Assembly: GCF_900111765.1 (NCBI RefSeq)
Contig: NZ_FOIB01000016.1
Location: 1-64,000 of the forward strand
Source of the DNA: Myxococcus fulvus
GTDB taxonomy: Bacteria; Myxococcota; Myxococcia; Myxococcales; Myxococcaceae
Reading direction: 5' to 3'
DNA: 64,000 nucleotides
A program made the position numbers and the translations under genes. The first letter of the stretch is position 1; every line of letters begins with the position of its first letter. The notes below the pieces were generated by a model, which worked only from the letters and a program-made list of their open reading frames with translations, was not told the origin of the DNA and made no database searches. This document shows positions 6,168-14,790 of the stretch, in pieces.

Positions 6168-8405
6168 ATGAGCCTTCCGTCCCAGGAACCCCAGGCCGTC
6201 GACCCGATGCCTCCCGCGGACGCGGAGGCCCTCAAGAATGCCGCGGTCCAGGCCTTCGTCGAGTGGACCCGGCGCCTGCCCGTTCCACCTCCGAACTCGC
6301 AAGAGTTCATCCGCTCGGTGGAGCCGAAGACGCGCAGGGCAGCCCGTATCTACTCCACCATCACGGAGCGGAGAGTCGTGTGGAAGGAAGGCCCGACCCA
6401 CGGCTCTCCCGTCGTTACAGGATTGAGGCGACAAGCCAGCAGCGTCGACCTCTGGGCGGAAACCCCCGAGAGCCTTCGCAATAGCAGCCTCTCCGTTCTC
6501 GCCTGCTCTCCATGCGGAGGCGTGGGCTCATCCCCCTGCCCCAAGTGCAAGGGGAGAGGGAACATCCAATGCTGGAACTGTCGAGGCACTCGGAAGGCCT
6601 ACGGATACGCCAAGGACAATTCGCGCCGACTCATGAACTGCCGGCAGTGCGATGCGAGTGGGAGGCTCACCTGTAGTGGTTGCAATTCAGGGAGCGTGTC
6701 CTGCGCAGCCTGTCTAGGACACGGTCGCGAACAGCGTTGGCTCGAATTCGTCGATTCGGTCCGCTCTGACGTCCTAGTGCTTTCCGAGGACGAGCACCTG
6801 CGCCGGCTGGTGTGGACGACTGAGGGCATGGAGCAGGACGCAAAACTCGTGGGGGAAATCAGCGCGAATGGCGTGCTCACCCAGGAGAAGGTCGCGCAGC
6901 ACCTCCCGGAGGAATGGGTCCAGGAGCACTGGGGAAAGACCCGAGTCCCCCTGAAGGTATACGAGCGCATCACCCGCCAGACCTTCCAGGTGTTCGAGGT
7001 CCCCGCCGCGCGCGTGTCCTACGGCATCGCGGACGCGCCCTCGACCACGGTTCAATTCGAGGGGAGGCGGATGCTGGCGCCACCGGTCGCGGAGGACCGG
7101 CAGCTCACCACTCGGGGGCGAAAGGTCCTCGCGGTACGCCTGCCCCTCATCGCTGTGGCCTTGGGAATCCCGCTTCTTTACATCCTCCGAGGCTCGTTCT
7201 TCTGGAACGGCTGGTTGGCGGCACTGCTGTTCTCCCTCGGTGGTTTCGCGGTCGTCACTGACCGCTTGGTCCAGGACTGGACCCTGGGCAGGAGACAGAA
7301 GATTCGCCAGTGGAGACGTGGCATGGCCGTGTATGCGCTCAGCGCCATTGTCGTTGCGCTACTCGCAGAGCCACGGCTGTTTGAAGCACGTCGATACATT
7401 TCGAAGGGCCGCCTCGACGACGCACAGACGGAGCTGCAGGCGCTGGGTGAGCCCGAGTCTCCCGAGCTCCAGGCGGCCTGGACGGACCTCCACCTGGCCC
7501 ATGCGCTGCGTGAGCAGCAGGTGCACGAGGTCGCCAAGGATGCCCTCGCGATGAAGCCCGGCTCACCGGAGCGGGCCCAGGTCGACCAGCATCTGCTGTC
7601 CCTCACCCGGCAACAGGTCCTCGCGTCCCTCGGGCGCAAGGACGTGACCTCCGCCTCGGCGGTGCTCGCCTCCGCCCACCCCGTGCTCGCACAGGGATTC
7701 CCGAAGGACATCGGCGAGCTGACCGCGCGCCTCTACGAGGCGGAGCACGCCGCCTGTACAACGGACCCCTGCCGATGGAAGACGCTCTCTGTCGCGCTTC
7801 GCGCCGAGCCTACGCCGAGCCGTGAGCAACGACTCGGACAGGCGCGCGCGACGCTGGTGGAGCAATTGACGCCCAGGCCGCGCCCCAAGGCTGCCACCCT
7901 GGACTGGGTCCTCCACCTCCACAAGACGACCGCGCTCGCCAGCGAGCTTGCGGACACGCCGTACGACCCACAGGTGTCTGTCCACGCGAAGCAGGCCCTC
8001 ACCTGGGCCCGGGAGGAACGGGAGCGGATTCCGCTCATCGGCGCGGAGCGCGAGGTGGCCATCTCCCTGCTCCAACTGACGGCCAGCAGTCACCCGAACA
8101 TCCTGTCGAAGACCACGGAGTCCGTCGCCCTCTCGTGCGAGCTGCGGGACGGGCGCTGCGTGGGCGCGTACCTGGCCGGCGCGGACAAGGAGTCACGCGT
8201 GCTCAACAACCTGAAGCGCACGCCCGTGACGAAGGAGCTGCTCTCCCGTGTCCTCGGACATCCGGTCGAGCTGCCCGCGCCGCCCCAGCCTCGTGGAGGC
8301 AAGCCCCCCACGCAGACGACCTGGAAGGATGGCCGCGTGACGCTCGTGGCGAGATGGAACGGCATCTACCTGATGGAGCTGCGCGTCGGTGAGGTGAAGC
8401 CATGA
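6168..8405 (+). CDS. DnaJ-type cysteine-finger membrane protein with helical C-terminal region
   Basis: A 745-residue protein with an unusual layout. Residues about 112-185 hold repeated CxxC pairs of the DnaJ central-domain kind (CSPCGGVGS, CPKCKGRG, CWNCRG, CRQCDASG, CSGCNSG, CAACLGHG), probably binding several zinc ions. Hydrophobic segments follow at about 325-365 and 387-402, predicted as two or three membrane spans, then about 340 residues of alpha-helical, TPR-like sequence (RYISKGRLDDAQTELQALG). The ATG at 6168 lies 28 bases after the helicase stop; an in-frame start exists at 6039 but lies inside the helicase gene. The first 1.2 kb looks less GC-extreme than its neighbours by eye. 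Overlap of 4 bases with hxsA ties it to the Hxs cassette. Function unknown; a scaffold or chaperone-like role is inference. Confidence 0.7.
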   Translation: MSLPSQEPQAVDPMPPADAEALKNAAVQAFVEWTRRLPVPPPNSQEFIRSVEPKTRRAARIYSTITERRVVWKEGPTHGSPVVTGLRRQASSVDLWAETPESLRNSSLSVLACSPCGGVGSSPCPKCKGRGNIQCWNCRGTRKAYGYAKDNSRRLMNCRQCDASGRLTCSGCNSGSVSCAACLGHGREQRWLEFVDSVRSDVLVLSEDEHLRRLVWTTEGMEQDAKLVGEISANGVLTQEKVAQHLPEEWVQEHWGKTRVPLKVYERITRQTFQVFEVPAARVSYGIADAPSTTVQFEGRRMLAPPVAEDRQLTTRGRKVLAVRLPLIAVALGIPLLYILRGSFFWNGWLAALLFSLGGFAVVTDRLVQDWTLGRRQKIRQWRRGMAVYALSAIVVALLAEPRLFEARRYISKGRLDDAQTELQALGEPESPELQAAWTDLHLAHALREQQVHEVAKDALAMKPGSPERAQVDQHLLSLTRQQVLASLGRKDVTSASAVLASAHPVLAQGFPKDIGELTARLYEAEHAACTTDPCRWKTLSVALRAEPTPSREQRLGQARATLVEQLTPRPRPKAATLDWVLHLHKTTALASELADTPYDPQVSVHAKQALTWAREERERIPLIGAEREVAISLLQLTASSHPNILSKTTESVALSCELRDGRCVGAYLAGADKESRVLNNLKRTPVTKELLSRVLGHPVELPAPPQPRGGKPPTQTTWKDGRVTLVARWNGIYLMELRVGEVKP

Positions 8406-8920
8406 ACCCGAAACCTCCCCGGCTGCTCTCCGTCAGCGCGGCGCTCATGGGACTGCTCGGAGGCGCGGCGCCCTCGGGGCTGCTCGTGCCCGGCATCGAG
8501 CTCCAGGTCGCTCAACCCACGTGGCGACGGCGCAACGAAGAGGACTCGCGCGACGAGCTGCTCCTCGTCGTCCCTCCCACCAACAGCCAGATTCTGCTCG
8601 CGGGTCATCGCTCGCACCGCTCCCACTCCTCGCACCGCAGCCACTACTCCGGCAGCAGGAGCCGGAGCTACGGCGGCGGCTACTCTGCTCCCGCTGAAGA
8701 GCCCGAGCCTCCGCCCAAGCCCGCGTCGGTGTCCTTCGTCGCCTTCCCCGGCGGACGCATCTTCGTCGACGACAAGCCCGCGGGTCAGGACGTGACGGCC
8801 CTCATGCGGCTGGCGGCGGGCAAGCACACCGTCCGCATCGAGAACCGCTTCCTCGGCACCACCACCGTCGAAGTGGACCTGGTCGCGGGACAGACGGGCG
8901 ACGTCACCATCGAGTGGTGA
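8402..8920 (+). CDS. hxsA: His-Xaa-Ser repeat protein HxsA with PEGA domain
   Basis: A 172-residue predicted exported protein, likely the substrate of the HxsB/HxsC radical SAM enzymes. Residues 8-38 are a hydrophobic signal-like stretch. Residues 69-83 are five back-to-back His-Xaa-Ser units (HRS HRS HSS HRS HYS), followed by a Ser/Arg/Gly/Tyr-rich tract and a short proline-rich linker. Residues about 105-172 read as a PEGA domain (GGRIFVDDKPAG ... GKHTVRIE), a surface module in bacterial envelope proteins. The start overlaps the upstream stop (ATGA). Family knowledge: HxsA proteins are defined by HxS tandem repeats beside hxsB, hxsC and hxsD. The chemical modification is, to my knowledge, unresolved. 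The PEGA fusion is directly visible; surface location is inference. Confidence 0.8.
   Translation: MNPKPPRLLSVSAALMGLLGGAAPSGLLVPGIELQVAQPTWRRRNEEDSRDELLLVVPPTNSQILLAGHRSHRSHSSHRSHYSGSRSRSYGGGYSAPAEEPEPPPKPASVSFVAFPGGRIFVDDKPAGQDVTALMRLAAGKHTVRIENRFLGTTTVEVDLVAGQTGDVTIEW
8606..8650 (+). repeat. Five tandem His-Xaa-Ser codon triplets in hxsA
   Basis: Fifteen consecutive codons encode five HxS units. X is Arg in three, Ser in one and Tyr in one. This is the signature repeat of the Hxs system and the most likely site of radical-SAM modification. Confidence 0.85.
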
Positions 8921-8931
8921 GGAGCAGACAC

Positions 8932-9267
8932 GTGACCACGGACACCGACCTCACCTTCCGCGACGGCGCCGTGCAGGCCGTCCTCGACCTGCGCGTCTAT
9001 CGACTCGCGGCGATACAGAAGTCCGCGTACCGCTTCGCCGACCGGTGCACCGCCGTGCTCGGCTCGCCCGACGCGGACCGGATTCCCATCCGCTTCCTCT
9101 TCGCCCCCGCCGTCACCGAGCAGCACGCGCTGGAGACGGTGCGGCTGTTCTTCCAGGAGCTGCTGGACCAGGAGCTGCGAGAGCAGGTGGGCGACGAGAC
9201 CCGGGCCCTGCGCGCGTTGATTGTCGCGCAGGCCTTCTCGCGCACCGGACTGATTCGCCAGGACTGA
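8932..9267 (+). CDS. hxsD: His-Xaa-Ser system protein HxsD
   Basis: A small 111-residue protein that matches HxsD in size and position, with features such as LRVYRLAAIQKSAYRFADRC near the N-terminus. HxsD is an accessory of the system and has no assigned reaction. The GTG at 8932 is chosen because GGAG lies 8 bases upstream; a GTG at 8914 would overlap the hxsA stop and has no ribosome site. hxsB follows after 14 bases. Its size and lack of catalytic motifs would suit a substrate-recognition or carrier role, but that is inference. Confidence 0.78.
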   Translation: MTTDTDLTFRDGAVQAVLDLRVYRLAAIQKSAYRFADRCTAVLGSPDADRIPIRFLFAPAVTEQHALETVRLFFQELLDQELREQVGDETRALRALIVAQAFSRTGLIRQD

Positions 9268-9281
9268 GGTCGACGCACGCC

Positions 9282-10724
9282 ATGTTCCATGACCGCTCCA
9301 GGTACCAGTCCACACGGGGCTACCAGCTCGCGCCCCTGCGCTTCAGCCGGCTGGACGACTCGCGCTACGTCGTGACGAACGACGTGGGCGAATACGTCGT
9401 GCTCCCCCGACACGAGCTGGTCGACTTCGTCCGTCACGCGCTGCCCCCGCACCGCGAGGCCTACAAGACGCTCAAGTCACGGCACTTCCTGTTCGACGAG
9501 CACTCCCGCGTGGCGCTGGAGCTGCTCGCGCTGAAGTACCGCACCCGCACCGAGCAGCTCGCGAACTTCACCGGGCTGCACATCTTCGTGGTCACCCTGC
9601 GCTGCGACCACTCCTGCGCCTACTGCCAGGTGTCCCGGCAGGCGGAGGGTGCCCTCGAGTTCGACATGTCGCAGGAGCACGCGGACCGCGCGCTCGACTT
9701 CATGTTCCGCAGCCCCTCGCCCACCCTCAAGGTCGAGTTCCAGGGCGGAGAGCCGCTGCTCCACTTCGAGCGCATCCGGTACATCGTCGAGCGCGCCAAG
9801 GCCCTCAACCAGGTGCACCGCAGAGAGCTCCAGTTCGTCATCGCGAGCAACCTCTCCCGCCTCACCGACGAGGTGCTCGACTTCTGCCGCGAGCACGGCG
9901 TGCTCCTCTCGACCTCCCTGGACGGCCCCGAGGACCTGCACAACACCCAGCGCCCCGTGCGCGGCGGGGACAGCCACCGACGCACGCTCCAGGCGATTCA
10001 CCGGGCGCGACAGGCGCTCGGGCCGGACGCGGTCTCCGCGCTGATGACGACGACCCAGGCGAGCCTGGCGCGCGTCGAGGACATCATCGACGAGTACGTG
10101 CGCCAGGGCTTCCACGGCATCTTCCTCAGGAACATCAGCCCCTATGGGTTCGCCGTCCGCCAGCGCGCCTCACGCCAGTACGACGTCGAGGCGTGGGTGG
10201 AGTTCTACAAGCGCGGGCTCGCGCACATCCTCCGCGTCAACGAGCAGGGCTACCCGCTCCAGGAGGAGTACACCGCCATCCTGTTGCAGAAGCTCTTCTC
10301 GCCCCGGGGCTCGACGTACGTCGACCTCCAGTCGCCCGCGGGCATCGGCATCGGCGCGCTCGTCTACAACTACGACGGCGCGGTGTACGCCTCCGACGAG
10401 GGGCGGATGCTCGCGGAGATGGGTGACTTCTCCTTCCGGCTCGGCCACCTCTCGCGCGACTCCTACGAGTCCATCATGACGTCCGACACGCTCCTCGCCC
10501 ACCTGAGCGACACCATGCCGGAGGGCGTACCCATGTGCGGCGACTGCGCCTTCCTCCCCTACTGCGGCGCGGACCCCGTCTTCCACCAGGCGACGATGAA
10601 GGACGCCGTCGGACACAAGGCGTTCAGCGCCTTCTGCCAGAAGCAGATGAGCGTGCTGCGTCACCTCATCGGCCTGCTCGAGGACGACGCCCGCGCGCGC
10701 GACATCCTCATGGGGTGGCGCTGA
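9282..10724 (+). CDS. hxsB: Radical SAM maturase HxsB
   Basis: A 480-residue radical SAM/SPASM protein. The 4Fe-4S motif is C108-x3-C112-x2-C115 (CDHSCAYC). A VEFQGGEPLLHFERI motif supports SAM binding, and a C-terminal cysteine set (CGDCAFLPYCGADPV and a later FCQKQ) is SPASM-like for auxiliary clusters. The first about 95 residues may form a leader-recognition region. Order, length and motif context identify HxsB, which is predicted to modify the His-Xaa-Ser repeats of HxsA. It starts 14 bases after hxsD and ends 3 bases before hxsC. The reaction type (crosslink, epimerisation or other) cannot be read from sequence. Confidence 0.87.
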   Translation: MFHDRSRYQSTRGYQLAPLRFSRLDDSRYVVTNDVGEYVVLPRHELVDFVRHALPPHREAYKTLKSRHFLFDEHSRVALELLALKYRTRTEQLANFTGLHIFVVTLRCDHSCAYCQVSRQAEGALEFDMSQEHADRALDFMFRSPSPTLKVEFQGGEPLLHFERIRYIVERAKALNQVHRRELQFVIASNLSRLTDEVLDFCREHGVLLSTSLDGPEDLHNTQRPVRGGDSHRRTLQAIHRARQALGPDAVSALMTTTQASLARVEDIIDEYVRQGFHGIFLRNISPYGFAVRQRASRQYDVEAWVEFYKRGLAHILRVNEQGYPLQEEYTAILLQKLFSPRGSTYVDLQSPAGIGIGALVYNYDGAVYASDEGRMLAEMGDFSFRLGHLSRDSYESIMTSDTLLAHLSDTMPEGVPMCGDCAFLPYCGADPVFHQATMKDAVGHKAFSAFCQKQMSVLRHLIGLLEDDARARDILMGWR

Positions 10725-10727
10725 GCC

Positions 10728-11897
10728 ATGCCCGCCCTGGACCTCTCCTCGGCCGGACTGAAGGCGCTCTCCACGCGCTCCTCCGAGCCGTTCATCGCCC
10801 GCGTCCGTGAGCACCTGGACGACACGTCCCCGGCCCGTGAGCAGGAGGTGCTCCTCGTCCGGCGTCCCACGGCGTCACTGCCCCCGGGCTTCCGGGGGTA
10901 CCTCCTGTGGGACGAGCGCCTCGTGAGCAGCAGCCCGGCCCCGGGGGACACCTACGTCCTGCCTCCCAACCTGCGCTACCTCGCGGACGGGGACGTGGTG
11001 CGCCTCCACCCCGAGCGCGAGGCCCTGTCGACGCTGTACCGCCGCGCCTCGCCGTCGAACACGTTCCTGGTGACGGAGCGCTGCGACAATCACTGCCTGA
11101 TGTGCTCCCAGCCGCCCCGCAAGCAGGATGACTCCTGGCTCGTGGACGAGCTGATGCAGGCGCTCCCGCTCATCTCCCCGGAGACGCGCGAGCTCGGCAT
11201 CACCGGCGGCGAGCCGAGCCTGCTCAAGGGCCGCCTCGTCGCGCTGCTCGCGCAGATGAAGCAGCACCTGCCGCGAACCGCCGTCCACATCCTGACCAAC
11301 GGGCGCGGCTTCGCGAACCCCGAGCTGGCGCGCGCGGTGGCGGACGTCCAGCACCCCGACCTGATGCTGGGCATCCCGCTCTACTCGGACCTGCCCGAGG
11401 AGCATGACTACGTCGTCCAGGCCCTGGGCGCCTTCGACGAGACCGTCCGAGGCATCCTCCACCTCAAGCGCGCCCGGGTGCGCGTGGAGCTGCGCTGCGT
11501 GGTCCACGCGCAGACGTACGCGCGCCTGCCCCAGCTCGCGGAGTTCATCGCGCGCAACCTGGCCTTCGTCGACCACGTCGCGCTGATGGGGCTGGAGCTG
11601 ATGGGGTTCGCCAAGACGAACCTCGGCCTGCTCTGGATGGACCCGCTCGACTACCAGCCCCAGCTCAGCGCGGCGGTCCGCACGCTGAGCCGCGCGGGGC
11701 TGGAGACGTCCCTCTACAACCACCCGCTCTGCACCCTGCCCGGCGAGCTGCACCCTTTCGCGCGCAAGAGCATCTCCGACTGGAAGAACCTCTACGCCGA
11801 GGACTGCGAGCGCTGCACCCGCCGGGAGGACTGCGGCGGGTTCTTCGCCTCCGGCTTCGTGAAGCGAAGCCGGGGCATCCAGCCCTTCGTGGACTGA
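10728..11897 (+). CDS. hxsC: Radical SAM maturase HxsC
   Basis: A 389-residue second radical SAM enzyme. The cluster motif is C119-x3-C123-x2-C126 (CDNHCLMC), followed by an LGITGGEPSLL SAM-binding motif. The C-terminus has a short cysteine cluster (CERCTRREDCGGFF). The order A-D-B-C is complete in this window. The gene ends only 8 bases from the convergent 612-aa gene, with no room for a hairpin terminator between them, so antisense read-through between the two loci is possible. The role is modification of HxsA together with HxsB (family knowledge plus inference). Confidence 0.87.
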   Translation: MPALDLSSAGLKALSTRSSEPFIARVREHLDDTSPAREQEVLLVRRPTASLPPGFRGYLLWDERLVSSSPAPGDTYVLPPNLRYLADGDVVRLHPEREALSTLYRRASPSNTFLVTERCDNHCLMCSQPPRKQDDSWLVDELMQALPLISPETRELGITGGEPSLLKGRLVALLAQMKQHLPRTAVHILTNGRGFANPELARAVADVQHPDLMLGIPLYSDLPEEHDYVVQALGAFDETVRGILHLKRARVRVELRCVVHAQTYARLPQLAEFIARNLAFVDHVALMGLELMGFAKTNLGLLWMDPLDYQPQLSAAVRTLSRAGLETSLYNHPLCTLPGELHPFARKSISDWKNLYAEDCERCTRREDCGGFFASGFVKRSRGIQPFVD

Positions 11898-11905
11898 ACG
11901 GGCGC

Positions 11906-13744
11906 CTACGCGACGGACGCCGTCCGCCCGGTGAACGGGCACACCGCGCCCGCGGCCGCTGGAGGAGCGCCCACCCGCGTCAGCTTCGTCCCCTCTGGCG
12001 AGTTGTCGATGTCCACGCCGAACTCGTCCTGGAACACGTCCAGCAGGTACGGCAGCACGCCGACGGTGCCCGCGCGCATGCGGTGGTGGAGCGACAGGTC
12101 CTTGTTGGTGAAGCGCCGCTCCGGGTGCGGCCGCTCGAGGAGCGCGTTGGTCTCCCGCTGCACGTTCTCCAGCGCCAGCAGCGCCGAGCGCTCCAGCGTC
12201 AGGTACTCCGCCACCGCGTCCGCGATGGCCTCCGCCTGCGTCCCGAAACCGTCGCCCACCTTCGCGCGGACCACCATGCGGAGCCGCTTGCGCGTCTCCT
12301 CGTACACCGCGTCGTGCACGGGCGTGAAGATGTCCTTCAGGTGGACGAGCGACTCCTCCTTGAAGGTGCTCACGCCCCGCTGCGCGCGGTCGAACATCTC
12401 GACGTAGCGCGCCTCCGCCCAGTCGCGCTGGGTGGCCGTGTGCAGGCGCGTGGGCCGCATCATCTCGAAGTCCTTCTTCAGGCGCGCCCTGAGGCCGCTC
12501 CAGAAGTCGCCCTCCGTCGACGTGACGGACTCGGCCACCGCGCGGACCTGCTCGTACGCGCGGCACATGTAGCTCCACAGGTTGAACTGGAGCGAGTAGA
12601 GCTGCAGCCCCAGCTGCCCGTAGTCCACGCCCGGGACGATGTCCTTCTCCCACGAGAAGGACATGGGCTCCTCGTTCGCCACCGGCCGCCCGTCCATCAG
12701 CGTCTGGAAGTACTCGTCCACCAGGTTCGGCGGCCCCGCGCACACGCCGCGGTTGGACAGGTAGTGGTTGTCGCGGTCCGTCACGTACAAGAGCTCCGCG
12801 GACGAGATGGGCGAGTCGTAGGTGAGCGGCTCCTCCGGCAGGAAGAGCATGTACGCGGCCACCATCCGCACGCCGTCCGTCACGCGGTAGATGTTGGAGA
12901 GCACCGGGTCCAGCTGCCCGTTGGGCACCGGGTCGTTGGCGCGCATCAACATGTACGAGGGCACCGCGAGCACCGCGCACGCCGCCGCGTGCAGGTCCCC
13001 CATCCGCCAGCGCCCGTCCGGGAGCACCGTGTCGGGGCGCAGGAACGCCTGCCGCACCGCGCGCACCGCGTGCATCATCGGCTTCCAGTGCCGCATCATC
13101 GACTTGAGCGCCGTCACGTTCATGGGCGCGTTGTTGCGATAGCGGCTGCCGGCGAAGTGGCAGGCCTTGAACTCGGTGTCCATCTTCATGCGCAGCTGCT
13201 CGGGGAAGGTGTTGCTCTCCCCGATGTGCCGCCCCTCGGTGTCGAGCGCGGGGTGCGCGATGCGGTACACCGGCAGCACCGCCTCCAGGAACCCCAGCTC
13301 CAGGGGCCGCCCGGTCAGCATGCGCATCACCTCCGGGGCGTCCGGGTTCCACCACAGGGGCTCCGTGGGCGCGACCCGCTTCGCCTCCATCGCCAGGTAC
13401 TTGCGGTGGGACTCGCTCTCGAAGGCGAGCGTCGGGGCCTCGCGCGTGACGACGCCCTCCTCCAGCAGCGCCTCCAGCAGCTCCTTCACGCGCTCCCAGG
13501 GATACGGCTCACCCGTCGTCCACTTCGTGGCGTTGCCCGCCATGAAGGAGTCCTCCAGGCACAGCTGCTCCCCGAAGGAGTGCAGGTCCTGCTCCTCGAT
13601 GGAGATCTCCCGGGTGCCGTAATAGATGTGCAGCTCGAGCACACCCTCGGGCGTCGTCAGGTACTCCTTGATGAAGCGACGCCTCAGCGGCACGTACAGC
13701 GTCTCGTGAGGGTCCACCGACACCGGCACCGAGTCCTGGCTCAC
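11906..13744 (-). CDS. Unrecognised 612-aa protein downstream of two tiny peptide genes; candidate peptide-maturation enzyme
   Basis: A 612-residue soluble protein without a signal peptide; I recognise no family. The N-terminal 110 residues alternate strand-like and helix-like segments (LELHIYYGTREISI, then WERVKELLEALLEEGVVT) that could fold as a winged helix of the PqqD/RRE kind that binds RiPP leaders; this is a weak inference. The middle is helical with several conserved-looking His residues (RIAHPALD, GRHIGESN, MRHWKPMMHAV). A short CPFTG motif ends the protein. The GTG start at 13744 has an AGGAG site 8 bases upstream. The gene lies 92 bases after the second small peptide gene, beyond a strong terminator, as in many precursor-enzyme pairs. 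It could also be an unrelated enzyme. Confidence 0.6.
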   Translation of the reverse strand: MSQDSVPVSVDPHETLYVPLRRRFIKEYLTTPEGVLELHIYYGTREISIEEQDLHSFGEQLCLEDSFMAGNATKWTTGEPYPWERVKELLEALLEEGVVTREAPTLAFESESHRKYLAMEAKRVAPTEPLWWNPDAPEVMRMLTGRPLELGFLEAVLPVYRIAHPALDTEGRHIGESNTFPEQLRMKMDTEFKACHFAGSRYRNNAPMNVTALKSMMRHWKPMMHAVRAVRQAFLRPDTVLPDGRWRMGDLHAAACAVLAVPSYMLMRANDPVPNGQLDPVLSNIYRVTDGVRMVAAYMLFLPEEPLTYDSPISSAELLYVTDRDNHYLSNRGVCAGPPNLVDEYFQTLMDGRPVANEEPMSFSWEKDIVPGVDYGQLGLQLYSLQFNLWSYMCRAYEQVRAVAESVTSTEGDFWSGLRARLKKDFEMMRPTRLHTATQRDWAEARYVEMFDRAQRGVSTFKEESLVHLKDIFTPVHDAVYEETRKRLRMVVRAKVGDGFGTQAEAIADAVAEYLTLERSALLALENVQRETNALLERPHPERRFTNKDLSLHHRMRAGTVGVLPYLLDVFQDEFGVDIDNSPEGTKLTRVGAPPAAAGAVCPFTGRTASVA

Positions 13745-13765: not shown

Positions 13766-13813
13766 TGAAAGAAAAAACAGCCGCCAGCGGCCCGTGCACA
13801 GGCCACCAGCGAC
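13766..13813 (-). terminator. Intrinsic terminator/attenuator between peptide gene 1 and the 612-aa gene
   Basis: The - strand transcript forms a 15-bp stem (13799-13813 with 13780-13794) closed by a UGCA loop at 13795-13798, followed by UGUUUUUUCUUU. Five pairs are G-U, so the stem is complete only in the - strand RNA. It begins 23 bases after the peptide stop codon. Partial read-through would give much more peptide message than enzyme message. Confidence 0.85.
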
Positions 13814-13836
13814 TGGGTCAGCTCACCAACTCCACC

Positions 13837-13938
13837 TCAGATGTCGAGGGGCGCGGCGATGATGACGCCACCACCACAGCCACGACCACCGCTGCCCGCG
13901 GCAATCGGCCCAGCACGAACGCGCGTCTTGATCTTCAT
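13837..13938 (-). CDS. 33-aa Gly/Cys-rich peptide, RiPP-precursor-like (copy 1)
   Basis: A 33-residue peptide. It starts MKIKTRVRAGP, has a short spacer (IAAGS) and ends GGRGCGGGVIIAAPLDI. The first 11 residues are identical to copy 2, and the last 17 differ by only two conservative changes, while the spacer differs; that is the leader/linker/core pattern of peptide precursors. The ATG has GAGGAG about 7 bases upstream. The gene has its own conserved promoter-like block (13996-14041) and terminator (13766-13813). One cysteine (residue 21) sits in an RGCGGG context. It could be a ribosomally made, modified peptide or a signalling peptide; no similarity to a named family is claimed. Confidence 0.78.
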   Translation of the reverse strand: MKIKTRVRAGPIAAGSGGRGCGGGVIIAAPLDI

Positions 13939-13995
13939 GGACTGCTCCTCGTGTGAGTGAGACGTGATTTCCGATTCACGCGAAGCACAACCCTC

Positions 13996-14041
13996 GCGGA
14001 CCCGGAGTCGCAATCAAAACCAATCCGAATCTTGAGGTCAA
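13996..14041 (-). promoter_or_regulatory. Promoter-like block P1 for peptide gene 1
   Basis: Read on the - strand: TTGACC (14036-14041), 17 bases, a weak TTTGAT -10-like element, then a 13-mer ACTCCGGGTCCGC (13996-14008). The TTGAC and the 13-mer recur with exactly the same separation upstream of copy 2, so the block is a conserved unit. The 13-mer lies downstream of the putative -10, so it may be a transcribed or activator-bound element. Confidence 0.6.
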
Positions 14042-14268
14042 GTTGCACCAGCCACTCGAACACCGGACGCAGACACGCGTGACGCGATGCCCCGCAATCA
14101 CTGTCCTATGTGCTGGAATTCCGGCGGCGAAGACATAAATACGAGAATATCAAGGATTAACCGCCCCGCCGGGACATGCGTGTCCAATCGGGTGACTGCC
14201 ATTTCTCGAACCGTGTGAAACGCAGTGCGGCAAGGCAGGCCGCGCGACGGCGGCCCGAACGACAACGA

Positions 14269-14300
14269 CCGCCGACGGACCGTGCACGGTCCGCCGACGG
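14269..14300 (-). terminator. Hairpin after peptide gene 2
   Basis: A 14-bp stem with a UGCA loop. Two of the pairs are G-U only in the - strand RNA and would be A-C mismatches on the other strand, so the structure belongs to the peptide transcript. It starts 25 bases after the stop codon of copy 2. Only scattered U residues follow, so it is weaker than the hairpin of copy 1. The shared loop and similar stem indicate that it duplicated with the gene. Confidence 0.7.
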
Positions 14301-14325
14301 CCGAAGCGTCACGACGGGAAGCCGC

Positions 14326-14442
14326 TCAGATGTCGAGGGGCGTGGCGATGATGATGCCGCCGCCACAGCCGCGGCCGCCACCGCCGGTGGTACCGTCATC
14401 AGCCGACATGGGGCCCGCACGAACGCGCGTCTTGATCTTCAT
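14326..14442 (-). CDS. 38-aa Gly/Cys-rich peptide, RiPP-precursor-like (copy 2)
   Basis: A 38-residue paralogue of the 33-aa peptide: MKIKTRVRAGP, a longer variable spacer (MSADDGTTGG), then GGRGCGGGIIIATPLDI. The start has an AGGAG site in the same CTCACAC context as copy 1. Promoter block, coding sequence and UGCA-loop hairpin are all duplicated, so this is a tandem duplication of a whole transcription unit with selection on both ends of the peptide. It is the first gene of the - strand series leading to the 612-aa protein. The bioactive form, if any, is unknown. Confidence 0.78.
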   Translation of the reverse strand: MKIKTRVRAGPMSADDGTTGGGGRGCGGGIIIATPLDI

Positions 14443-14790
14443 GGGTTGCTCCTGTGTGAGTGATACGGAAGACCGGTTCACACCACGAGAACAGCTGGCG
14501 GACCCGGAGTAATCATTGAAACGGGATAAAGTCTGTCAGTCAAGACGTATCATCCATGACGCCATGCATCGTCTTCCGACCAACATGCAGGCCCAATCCC
14601 AACCTGGTTGGATGGGATTTCCTTTGCGTGTCGCGGAATGCATCGGATTGAGCCTGGGAGTCAGGCGGCCGGGCAGGCCAGGCCTTCCGAGCGCGCTCAC
14701 CGGTGCGCTCGGGCGCCAGGATGAGGGGGAGAGGGAGCCCCGCCTCGGGGTGAAGCCCTCGACGTACCCACCGGGTCCTGCCTAACTTGG
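14443..14790. other. Intergenic region between peptide gene 2 and the histidine kinase
   Basis: It contains promoter block P2 (14498-14543). Two further hairpins are visible: one with arms 14595-14601 and 14613-14619 (AATCCCA/TGGGATT), and one with perfect 8-bp arms 14687-14694 and 14705-14712 (CCGAGCGC/GCGCTCGG) about 80 bases before the kinase. No convincing gene is seen. Confidence 0.5.
14498..14543 (-). promoter_or_regulatory. Promoter-like block P2 for peptide gene 2
   Basis: On the - strand: TTGACT (14538-14543), 17 bases, TTCAAT, then the same 13-mer ACTCCGGGTCCGC (14498-14510) found in P1. From the TTGAC end to the 13-mer end both copies span 46 bases. The 13-mer sits 56 bases before the start codon here and 58 in copy 1. 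Confidence 0.6.

Follow-up and report, generated by a model that had tools for sequence, protein, structure and literature searches.

A 64,000-nucleotide (nt) stretch of the Myxococcus fulvus genome (contig NZ_FOIB01000016.1, positions 1 to 64,000; hereafter the window) carries two mini-genes for short peptides with a common N-terminus, beside an unannotated gene for a 612-amino acid (aa) protein, P0005. Mini-gene 1 (window 13837..13938, minus strand) encodes the 33-aa peptide MKIKTRVRAGPIAAGSGGRGCGGGVIIAAPLDI, which consists of the leader MKIKTRVRAG followed by PIAAGSGGRGCGGGVIIAAPLDI. Mini-gene 2 (14326..14442, minus strand) encodes the 38-aa peptide MKIKTRVRAGPMSADDGTTGGGGRGCGGGIIIATPLDI, with the same leader followed by PMSADDGTTGGGGRGCGGGIIIATPLDI. 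An earlier reading of this DNA (hereafter the original prediction) had proposed two such genes, duplicated together with their flanking signals. Conceptual translation confirmed both genes on the minus strand, and DNA repeats D1, D2, D5 and D15, spaced at 489-504 bp, make the duplication visible.

The flanking signals were likewise recovered on the minus strand. Unit 1 has a TTGAC box at 14037..14041 (-103 from the start codon) and the 13-mer ACTCCGGGTCCGC (repeat D5) at 13996..14008 (-70); in unit 2 the TTGAC box is at 14539..14543 (-101) and the 13-mer, again in D5, at 14498..14510 (-68). The distance between the two elements, predicted to be equal, is 33 nt from start to start in both units. 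The single site returned by a consensus promoter scan, at 14539-14512 on the minus strand, precedes unit 2; no site was returned for unit 1. Among 7 peptide units from four related genomes, TTGAC was retained in 6 and the exact 13-mer was intact in 1. The UGCA-loop hairpin described for each unit is also present as an intrinsic terminator-like structure with a 17-bp stem: one, at 13778..13815 with a T-run, separates peptide 1 from the next gene start at 13744, and the other, at 14266..14303, follows peptide 2 (z-scores of -5.2 and -6.1). Three terminator-like sites, two of them overlapping, were found, compared with a mean of 0.5 in shuffled sequences.

Strong hairpins and promoter-like boxes are also what would be seen if these units were a duplicated regulatory RNA, or promoter/terminator pairs enclosing accidental open reading frames, and the pattern of codon change makes this non-coding explanation highly improbable. 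Relative to the near relative at locus L010, peptide 1 differs by one synonymous codon and peptide 2 by three synonymous codons and one Thr/Ser codon, which amounts to four synonymous changes and one Thr/Ser change for both genes together. In a branch of 14-codon relatives described below, pairwise comparison gave 138 differences at codons 7, 11, 13 and 14, none of which changes the amino acid. In two phyla, the start and reading frame are also kept next to genes of a single enzyme family.

The relevant enzyme of this locus is encoded by the adjoining gene for P0005 (11906..13744, minus strand), which is absent from the original prediction; on the basis of its homologues and fold, P0005 is presumed to be a modifying enzyme. 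Searches of Pfam, NCBIfam and PDB sequences with P0005, its profiles and seven homologous precursors assigned no family and gave weak noise alone (for example apolipoprotein and Tugs); the precursors and enzymes scanned were without a match in NCBIfam or Pfam. P0005 itself was unmatched in Pfam at E<=10 and in NCBIfam at E<=1. An AlphaFold2 (AF2) model built from 12 sequences (mean predicted local distance difference test score, pLDDT, of 72) divides the protein into two parts. Approximately residues 10-103 (13436..13717, minus strand) form a winged-helix domain that, by VIA-align, resembles the recognition element (RRE) of enzymes that make ribosomally synthesized and post-translationally modified peptides (RiPPs). 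This N-domain aligned with the PbtF RRE (8t19; Z 6.2, root-mean-square deviation (rmsd) 3.1, 80 residues aligned), McbB (6gos; Z 7.0, rmsd 2.7, 77 aligned) and ThcOx (5lq4; Z 7.1, rmsd 3.0, 84 aligned), a moderate match (Z 6-7), as VIA-align Z values below 8 may reflect a common arrangement alone. The winged helix of NO66/MINA53 hydroxylases scored above the RREs against the same domain (Z 7.4-9.2). Foldseek matches of P0005 to RRE-bearing chains had probabilities of 0.69-0.93 and E-values of 0.4-2.1.

Residues 104-600 of P0005 (11945..13435, minus strand) form a helical domain. When modelled from 42 sequences (42 of 43 chosen rows, L011 being left out), this domain was predicted confidently (pLDDT 91.5, predicted template modelling score 0.92). 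The model had no Foldseek match at E<=0.001 and a best VIA-align Z of 5.7; the matches listed were generic helical-bundle, fumarase-like and transporter entries at low scores, and no P450, peptidase or TDO-like fold was prominent among them. Residues of P0005 that are invariant in the 42 sequences include Asp168, Arg172, Glu176, Arg201, Asn209, Arg231, Arg287, Cys335 and Tyr375, and His164 is near-invariant (frequencies over 71 sequences). Many invariant polar residues are what a catalytic site would be expected to show.

Three further observations concern this protein family. A CPFTG motif lies near the P0005 C-terminus (window 11927-11941), and proteobacterial enzymes (e.g., at L120, L093, L107 and L106) carry an N-terminal CP[FM]H motif. 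Internal TGA codons flagged in several homologues were considered as possible selenocysteine codons and rejected, as they are natural C-terminal stops in the frames listed. Stand-alone relatives of the helical domain, 421-466 aa long and without the RRE-like part, occur at L186:8682-9947, L187:6838-8136 and L047:7310-8710. Scanning gave them no family name and no leader peptide was seen near them in these three loci; they may display the ancestral reaction.

A single-sequence scan of named contigs with P0005 detected no relative, and a profile scan of the same contigs detected 42 loci. Homologues were present in 21 of 61 near genomes and 32 of 195 genomes of the phylum. The family spans Myxococcota and Proteobacteria, with record titles among the 42 contigs that include methanotrophs, Methylococcaceae, Ramlibacter, Rubrivivax, Steroidobacter, Phenylobacterium, Prosthecomicrobium and Nitrosomonas. 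Most of the long enzymes are flanked, upstream or downstream, by at least one tiny gene that begins like those of the window. Among 41 distinct enzymes (>590 aa and differing in the last 380 residues), 36 have, at most 1.5 kb away, a gene whose product begins like M[KQ][IV]K[TS]x[IVL]R[AG]G; loci taken from genome searches mostly carry flanks of only 1.5 kb. Three of the five exceptions (L015-L017, close relatives) carry motif peptides on their contig at a distance of about 6.7-6.8 kb, and the other two (L094 and L105) sit less than 1.3 kb from a contig or locus end. Examples of the tiny genes include MKIKTKVRGGPRGCGPGGISIYYEL in Myxococcus arrays, MKIKTTIRGGLTAIRTVPIVGRGCGGGGGFPVLLPKTIVVE in Archangium, and MKVKTNIRAGKGG...YVPPVSRCTGA and MKVKTKVRAGLRKCGGVHE in Proteobacteria; further paralogues of the family start MKIKTKVRGGPRGCG. 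The original prediction had named the absence of these peptides elsewhere as the finding that would overturn it, and the family is in fact widespread.

A second branch of the enzyme family, 582 aa long, is about 33% identical to P0005. In all 24 cases among the 195-genome matches, a leader motif lies 7.7-9.1 kb from the 582-aa-branch enzyme on the same contig, and the peptide at the inspected loci, MKIKIHVRGGPKAR or one related to it (for example MKIQTNVRAGVLVKGR), adjoins an HlyD gene. At L109, L113 and L116 of this branch a related gene follows, and the L109 copy (11737-12750) is APH-family kinase-like. The record titled Comamonas sp. KCTC 72670 (L115) holds a Myxococcus-type cluster with an identical MKIKIHVRGGPKAR gene, and its name looks wrong. 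In loci of methanotrophs and Steroidobacter, and in a further cluster of the window's genome on contig C10, the enzyme has a MauG/MbnH-like di-heme protein as neighbour; the label derives from scans of L090, L093, L120 and L039 (3781-5451), and from clustering only for L088 and L089.

To describe the peptides, 130 distinct sequences were gathered by leader pattern, a set that holds many paralogues and a few noise matches from genomes without enzyme or exporter. With few exceptions they share the leader M-[KQ]-[IV]-[KQ]-[TS]-x-[VIL]-[RK]-[GA]-G, a conservation that is partly built in because the peptides were collected with a similar pattern. The composition of the cores is not constrained by that pattern. 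Exactly one Cys is present in 108 peptides and none in 22, and an Arg lies within two residues of the Cys in 106 of the 108, compared with a mean of 28 and a maximum of 39 when cores were shuffled (200 rounds). The context RGCG is common to 61 of these single-Cys peptides. A conserved leader joined to a variable core suggests, at the level of sequence, ribosomal precursor peptides, and the RiPP reading of the original prediction is supported in outline. Its leader/linker/core scheme is well supported by the RRE-like cognate protein, a C39-peptidase exporter (see below) and the many paralogues and homologues; the limits it drew do not stand. The shared N-terminus taken as an 11-residue leader is a conserved leader of about 10 residues ending R-[AG]-G, and the 17-residue "core" is not a conserved unit of the family, being confined to the sub-group of the window, with variable tails elsewhere that mostly hold a single Cys and a nearby Arg.

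The 22 Cys-less peptides comprise 11 of a short-core branch, four from genome G236, three with NPQP[DE]PPG cores, and single cases or noise. Cores in the short-core branch are 3-7 residues long (PKAR, KARL, KVR, LTKIR, VLVKGR and others). The peptide MKIK[IL]HVRGGPKAR recurs in Myxococcus and Corallococcus in 12 DNA versions, whose differences are synonymous except at codon 5 (I/L). At core codons 11, 13 and 14 of this PKAR group there are 27, 41 and 35 pairwise synonymous differences, respectively, and zero non-synonymous differences. Because the core codon differences are all synonymous, there is strong evidence that these 14-codon genes are translated and the tetrapeptide is under selection, with the reservation that second copies ending PKARA, PKARS or GGVKAR, outside the set of 12, also exist. 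Two orphan peptides, MKVKTHIRGGFNPQPDPPG and MKVKTNIRGGFNPQPDPPG, that combine this leader with NPQP[DE]PPG cores were noted at L155:6016-6197 and L163:6245-6304 (genomes G104 and G105). The four G236 peptides, MKVKTDVKAGFIKF, MKVKTDIRAGDLPWLR, MKVKTDVRAGDLPMF and MKVKTDVRAGMKLPT, stand in tandem at L185:9573-10555, adjoined by an O-methyltransferase gene and genes that look by eye like polyketide synthases.

Genes for an ATP-binding cassette (ABC) export system recur at these loci. In 35 loci, the recurrent neighbours are an HlyD adaptor (15/35), an outer-membrane channel (10/35), and ABC proteins of 900 aa and 715 aa. Peptidase_C39 (PF03412) scored above its cut-off in the 900-aa protein in all three cases scanned, and both the catalytic His and Asp are kept in 15 of 15 exporters chosen for the Gln...Cys-Gly motif. 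By sequence, this fusion of a C39 peptidase with the Gln, Cys, His and Asp residues to an ABC protein is a peptidase-containing ABC transporter (PCAT). It falls far short of the NHLM/NHLP export system, with best scores for TIGR03796, TIGR03797 and TIGR03794 of 192, 170 and 33 bits versus cut-offs of 853.3, 709.4 and 156.2.

The leader and its presumed partners co-occur across genomes. The leader DNA pattern ATGMARRTNMARNNNNNNVTNMGNGSNGGN was found in 34 of 195 Myxococcota genomes, compared with 0 of 195 for the reversed pattern used as control. Motif and enzyme were both present in 30 genomes, motif only in 4, enzyme only in 2 and neither in 159 (p=1e-28). The exporter clade (cut-off E<=1e-120) was present in 40 genomes: 32 had both motif and exporter, 2 motif only, 8 exporter only and 153 neither (p=8e-27). 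Motif, enzyme and exporter occurred together in 30 genomes. As these Fisher tests count related genomes as independent, the associations were also computed at genus level (90 genera), where they are weaker and still significant (motif/enzyme p=4e-6; motif/exporter p=2e-7). A second sample comprised 369 genomes drawn evenly from the class of the Ramlibacter genome G196, which we take to be Gammaproteobacteria in GTDB. The enzyme was rare in this class, with one full and one partial match; the motif was found in 5 genomes and the exporter in 3, 2 genomes having both (p 4e-4), and 3 of the 5 motif genomes have a single match and no exporter and look like noise. Genome G020, of the window's genus, holds 28 leader-motif matches (L157, L158 and L164); several of these lie in loci that lack an enzyme gene.

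No exporter was found among the genes scanned around the window locus, which would thus rely in trans on the two exporters of the clade encoded in the same genome, on contigs C10 and C5. The C10 cluster contains a MauG/MbnH-like di-heme protein, a P0005 paralogue (56%) and seven peptides, and continues on the opposite strand with two ABC proteins and HlyD, after which seven more peptides follow (14 in total). The missing neighbour could also mean that P0005 is itself the leader peptidase, with Cys335 acting together with His164 or Asp168, and the exporter a transporter only. Cys335 and Asp168 are invariant and His164 nearly so, as such a role would have it; the exporters, however, keep the C39 catalytic residues in 15 of 15 cases (Gln and Cys by selection), and P0005 matched no peptidase family, so we consider a peptidase function of P0005 unlikely.

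We conclude that leader-guided modification, cleavage and export of small secreted peptides is the best explanation for this locus and its relatives, and a rather probable one. A separate promoter and terminator would serve each unit, and the hairpin that parts peptide 1 from the enzyme gene would allow the peptide to be made in excess over the enzyme. The RRE-like domain of P0005 would bind the leader, and the tail would be modified by the helical domain, with the Arg/Cys motif or its vicinity as the most likely place; that this enzyme modifies the tiny peptides is probable. The exporter (C39-ABC protein, second ABC protein, HlyD adaptor and outer-membrane channel) would read the same leader, cut after R-[AG]-G and secrete the product, with the window locus being served by the exporters on contig C10 or C5. 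In the 582-aa branch the product may be as small as Pro-Lys-Ala-Arg, resembling a conserved signal, whereas the large diverse arrays would resemble combinatorial products for competition or recognition.

The arrangement of the genes and their associations are directly observed; several points weigh against this explanation. Peptide modification, cleavage and function are themselves what we infer from that arrangement. The RRE-like match is moderate and surpassed by the hydroxylase winged helices, and the leader conservation is in part a product of the collection. Four of the 195 genomes have the motif without the enzyme (G022, G067, G068 and G146), two have the enzyme without the motif (G057 and G143), and 8 are exporter-positive without the motif. 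G236 and G068 have leader peptides and exporter with no enzyme match. The leader also lacks the Leu contacts at -7 and -12 seen in characterised C39 substrates and is too short to possess a -12 position, and Ala stands at -2 in 48 of the 130 peptides, compared with the GG/GA/GS motif reviewed in the portion of PMC10885120 considered.

Judging from G236 and G068, the leader may have no task beyond export; export as its basic role, with the enzyme a frequent partner, fits these cases. This leads to an alternative in which the peptides are plain, unmodified C39 exports, akin to microcins or pheromones, and P0005 is a leader-binding chaperone, a targeting factor, or an immunity or sensor protein. 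Cores of 3-7 residues such as PKAR offer little to modify, and the helical domain matched no known fold among the matches listed. Yet that domain carries the invariant residues Asp168 through Tyr375 listed above, as in a catalytic site. It is joined in one protein to an RRE-like domain, and RREs of known systems serve to recruit modifying enzymes; motif and exporter occur without the enzyme in just 2 of the 195 genomes (G022 and G068). Export without modification is accordingly the lesser possibility, with an appreciable minority chance, and leader-guided modification with cleavage and export is preferred.

A more specific version of the modification and export explanation holds that the family is a new natural-product class, in which a 10-residue leader is read both by a C39 exporter dedicated to it and by an enzyme family lacking described relatives, whose members join an RRE-like domain to a helical catalytic domain of new fold; the cores would be as short as 3-4 residues. 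One branch would then produce Pro-Lys-Ala-Arg as an interspecies myxobacterial signal, and the other a combinatorial single-Cys set with up to 28 leader-motif matches per genome. We place this full version slightly below an even chance, and there is a substantial chance that the family is a new RiPP-like class. To our knowledge, this would be the smallest leader-plus-core design of such kind.

In comparison with known RiPPs made by RRE-containing enzymes, the family is alike in its short precursors, conserved N-terminal leader and variable C-terminal part, and in the adjoining RRE-like winged-helix protein. It differs in that the other domain of the partner has no family or fold match and the leader is only about 10 residues with cores down to 3-7. 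RREs also occur on proteins without other Pfam annotation, according to the part of a 2025 RRE survey considered (PMC12710340). With the substrates of PCATs (bacteriocins, class II microcins and pheromones) the system shares a C39-ABC protein with catalytic residues, HlyD, an outer-membrane channel and the candidate site R-[GA]-G. The portion of PMC6959990 considered states that known C39 substrates need hydrophobic residues at -7 and -12, and that of PMC10885120 gives the C39 leader end as GG, GA or GS. Here, position -1 is Gly in 130 of 130 peptides and -2 is Gly in 81, Ala in 48 and Ser in 1 (positions limited by the search pattern), with I/V at -8, K/Q at -7 and no -12 in the leader. Relative to the canonical double-glycine leader as described in these partial sources, with L(-12), E(-8), L(-7) and GG/GA/GS, the 130 peptides thus lack the L(-7), L(-12) and E(-8) contacts.

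Tiny precursor genes are also found in myxobacteria for myxarylin and the biarylitides and for cittilin, as described in the portions of those reports considered. Biarylitides differ in their use of cytochrome P450s, on the same partial sources; P0005, the only protein examined in this respect, matched no P450 family and had no Pfam match of any kind at the threshold given above. Cittilin is likewise made with a cytochrome P450.

A complete His-Xaa-Ser (Hxs) system, comprising HxsA-like, HxsD (TIGR03976), HxsB and HxsC proteins, adjoins the locus at window 8402-11897 and is convergent with the peptide operon. The peptides could thus be substrates of the HxsB/HxsC radical-SAM pair, which lies within 6 kb, rather than of P0005, and Hxs genes are present in 3 of the 5 genomes with the window sub-group. 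By tblastn, HxsB/HxsC were found in L009, L010 and L079. They were missing from two loci with this peptide/enzyme sub-group, L080 (21.8 kb) and L043 (16.1 kb); other long loci also lack them, while many further loci have flanks too short for the comparison. As Hxs substrate one would expect the local HxsA-like protein, which is of a different type; substrates of this system carry His-Xaa-Ser repeats, and neither window peptide contains His. Because 2 of the 5 loci in this sub-group lack the Hxs genes, we judge that the position of these genes beside the peptides is probably incidental, and a role for HxsB/HxsC in modifying the peptides is very unlikely.

Literature searches of 5.39 million papers with four exact family peptide strings returned no match, and topic searches revealed no description of the family in the titles and opening lines of abstracts. 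This large peptide family is apparently undescribed so far, and its genes, of 13-58 codons, are easily overlooked in annotation. If the preferred explanation is true, a RiPP-like class with an uncharacterised enzyme extends across Myxococcota and Proteobacteria, and enzymologists would gain an enzyme with a defined substrate set. Diffusible peptide signals in Myxococcus and Corallococcus are a long-standing question, for which the short-core branch would then provide a concrete candidate. The notion of a C39 exporter leader would also have to be widened.

Exporters of the same clade were also observed in the window's genus in a different setting. At L191, L192, L193, L199 and L200 the exporter stands beside a JmjC_2/cupin oxygenase and an AurF-like protein, which replace the P0005 family (PF08007 was scanned in L192 and L193, and the AurF-like protein in L192). 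No MKIK-type peptide was seen at these five loci, which perhaps represent a sister peptide system.

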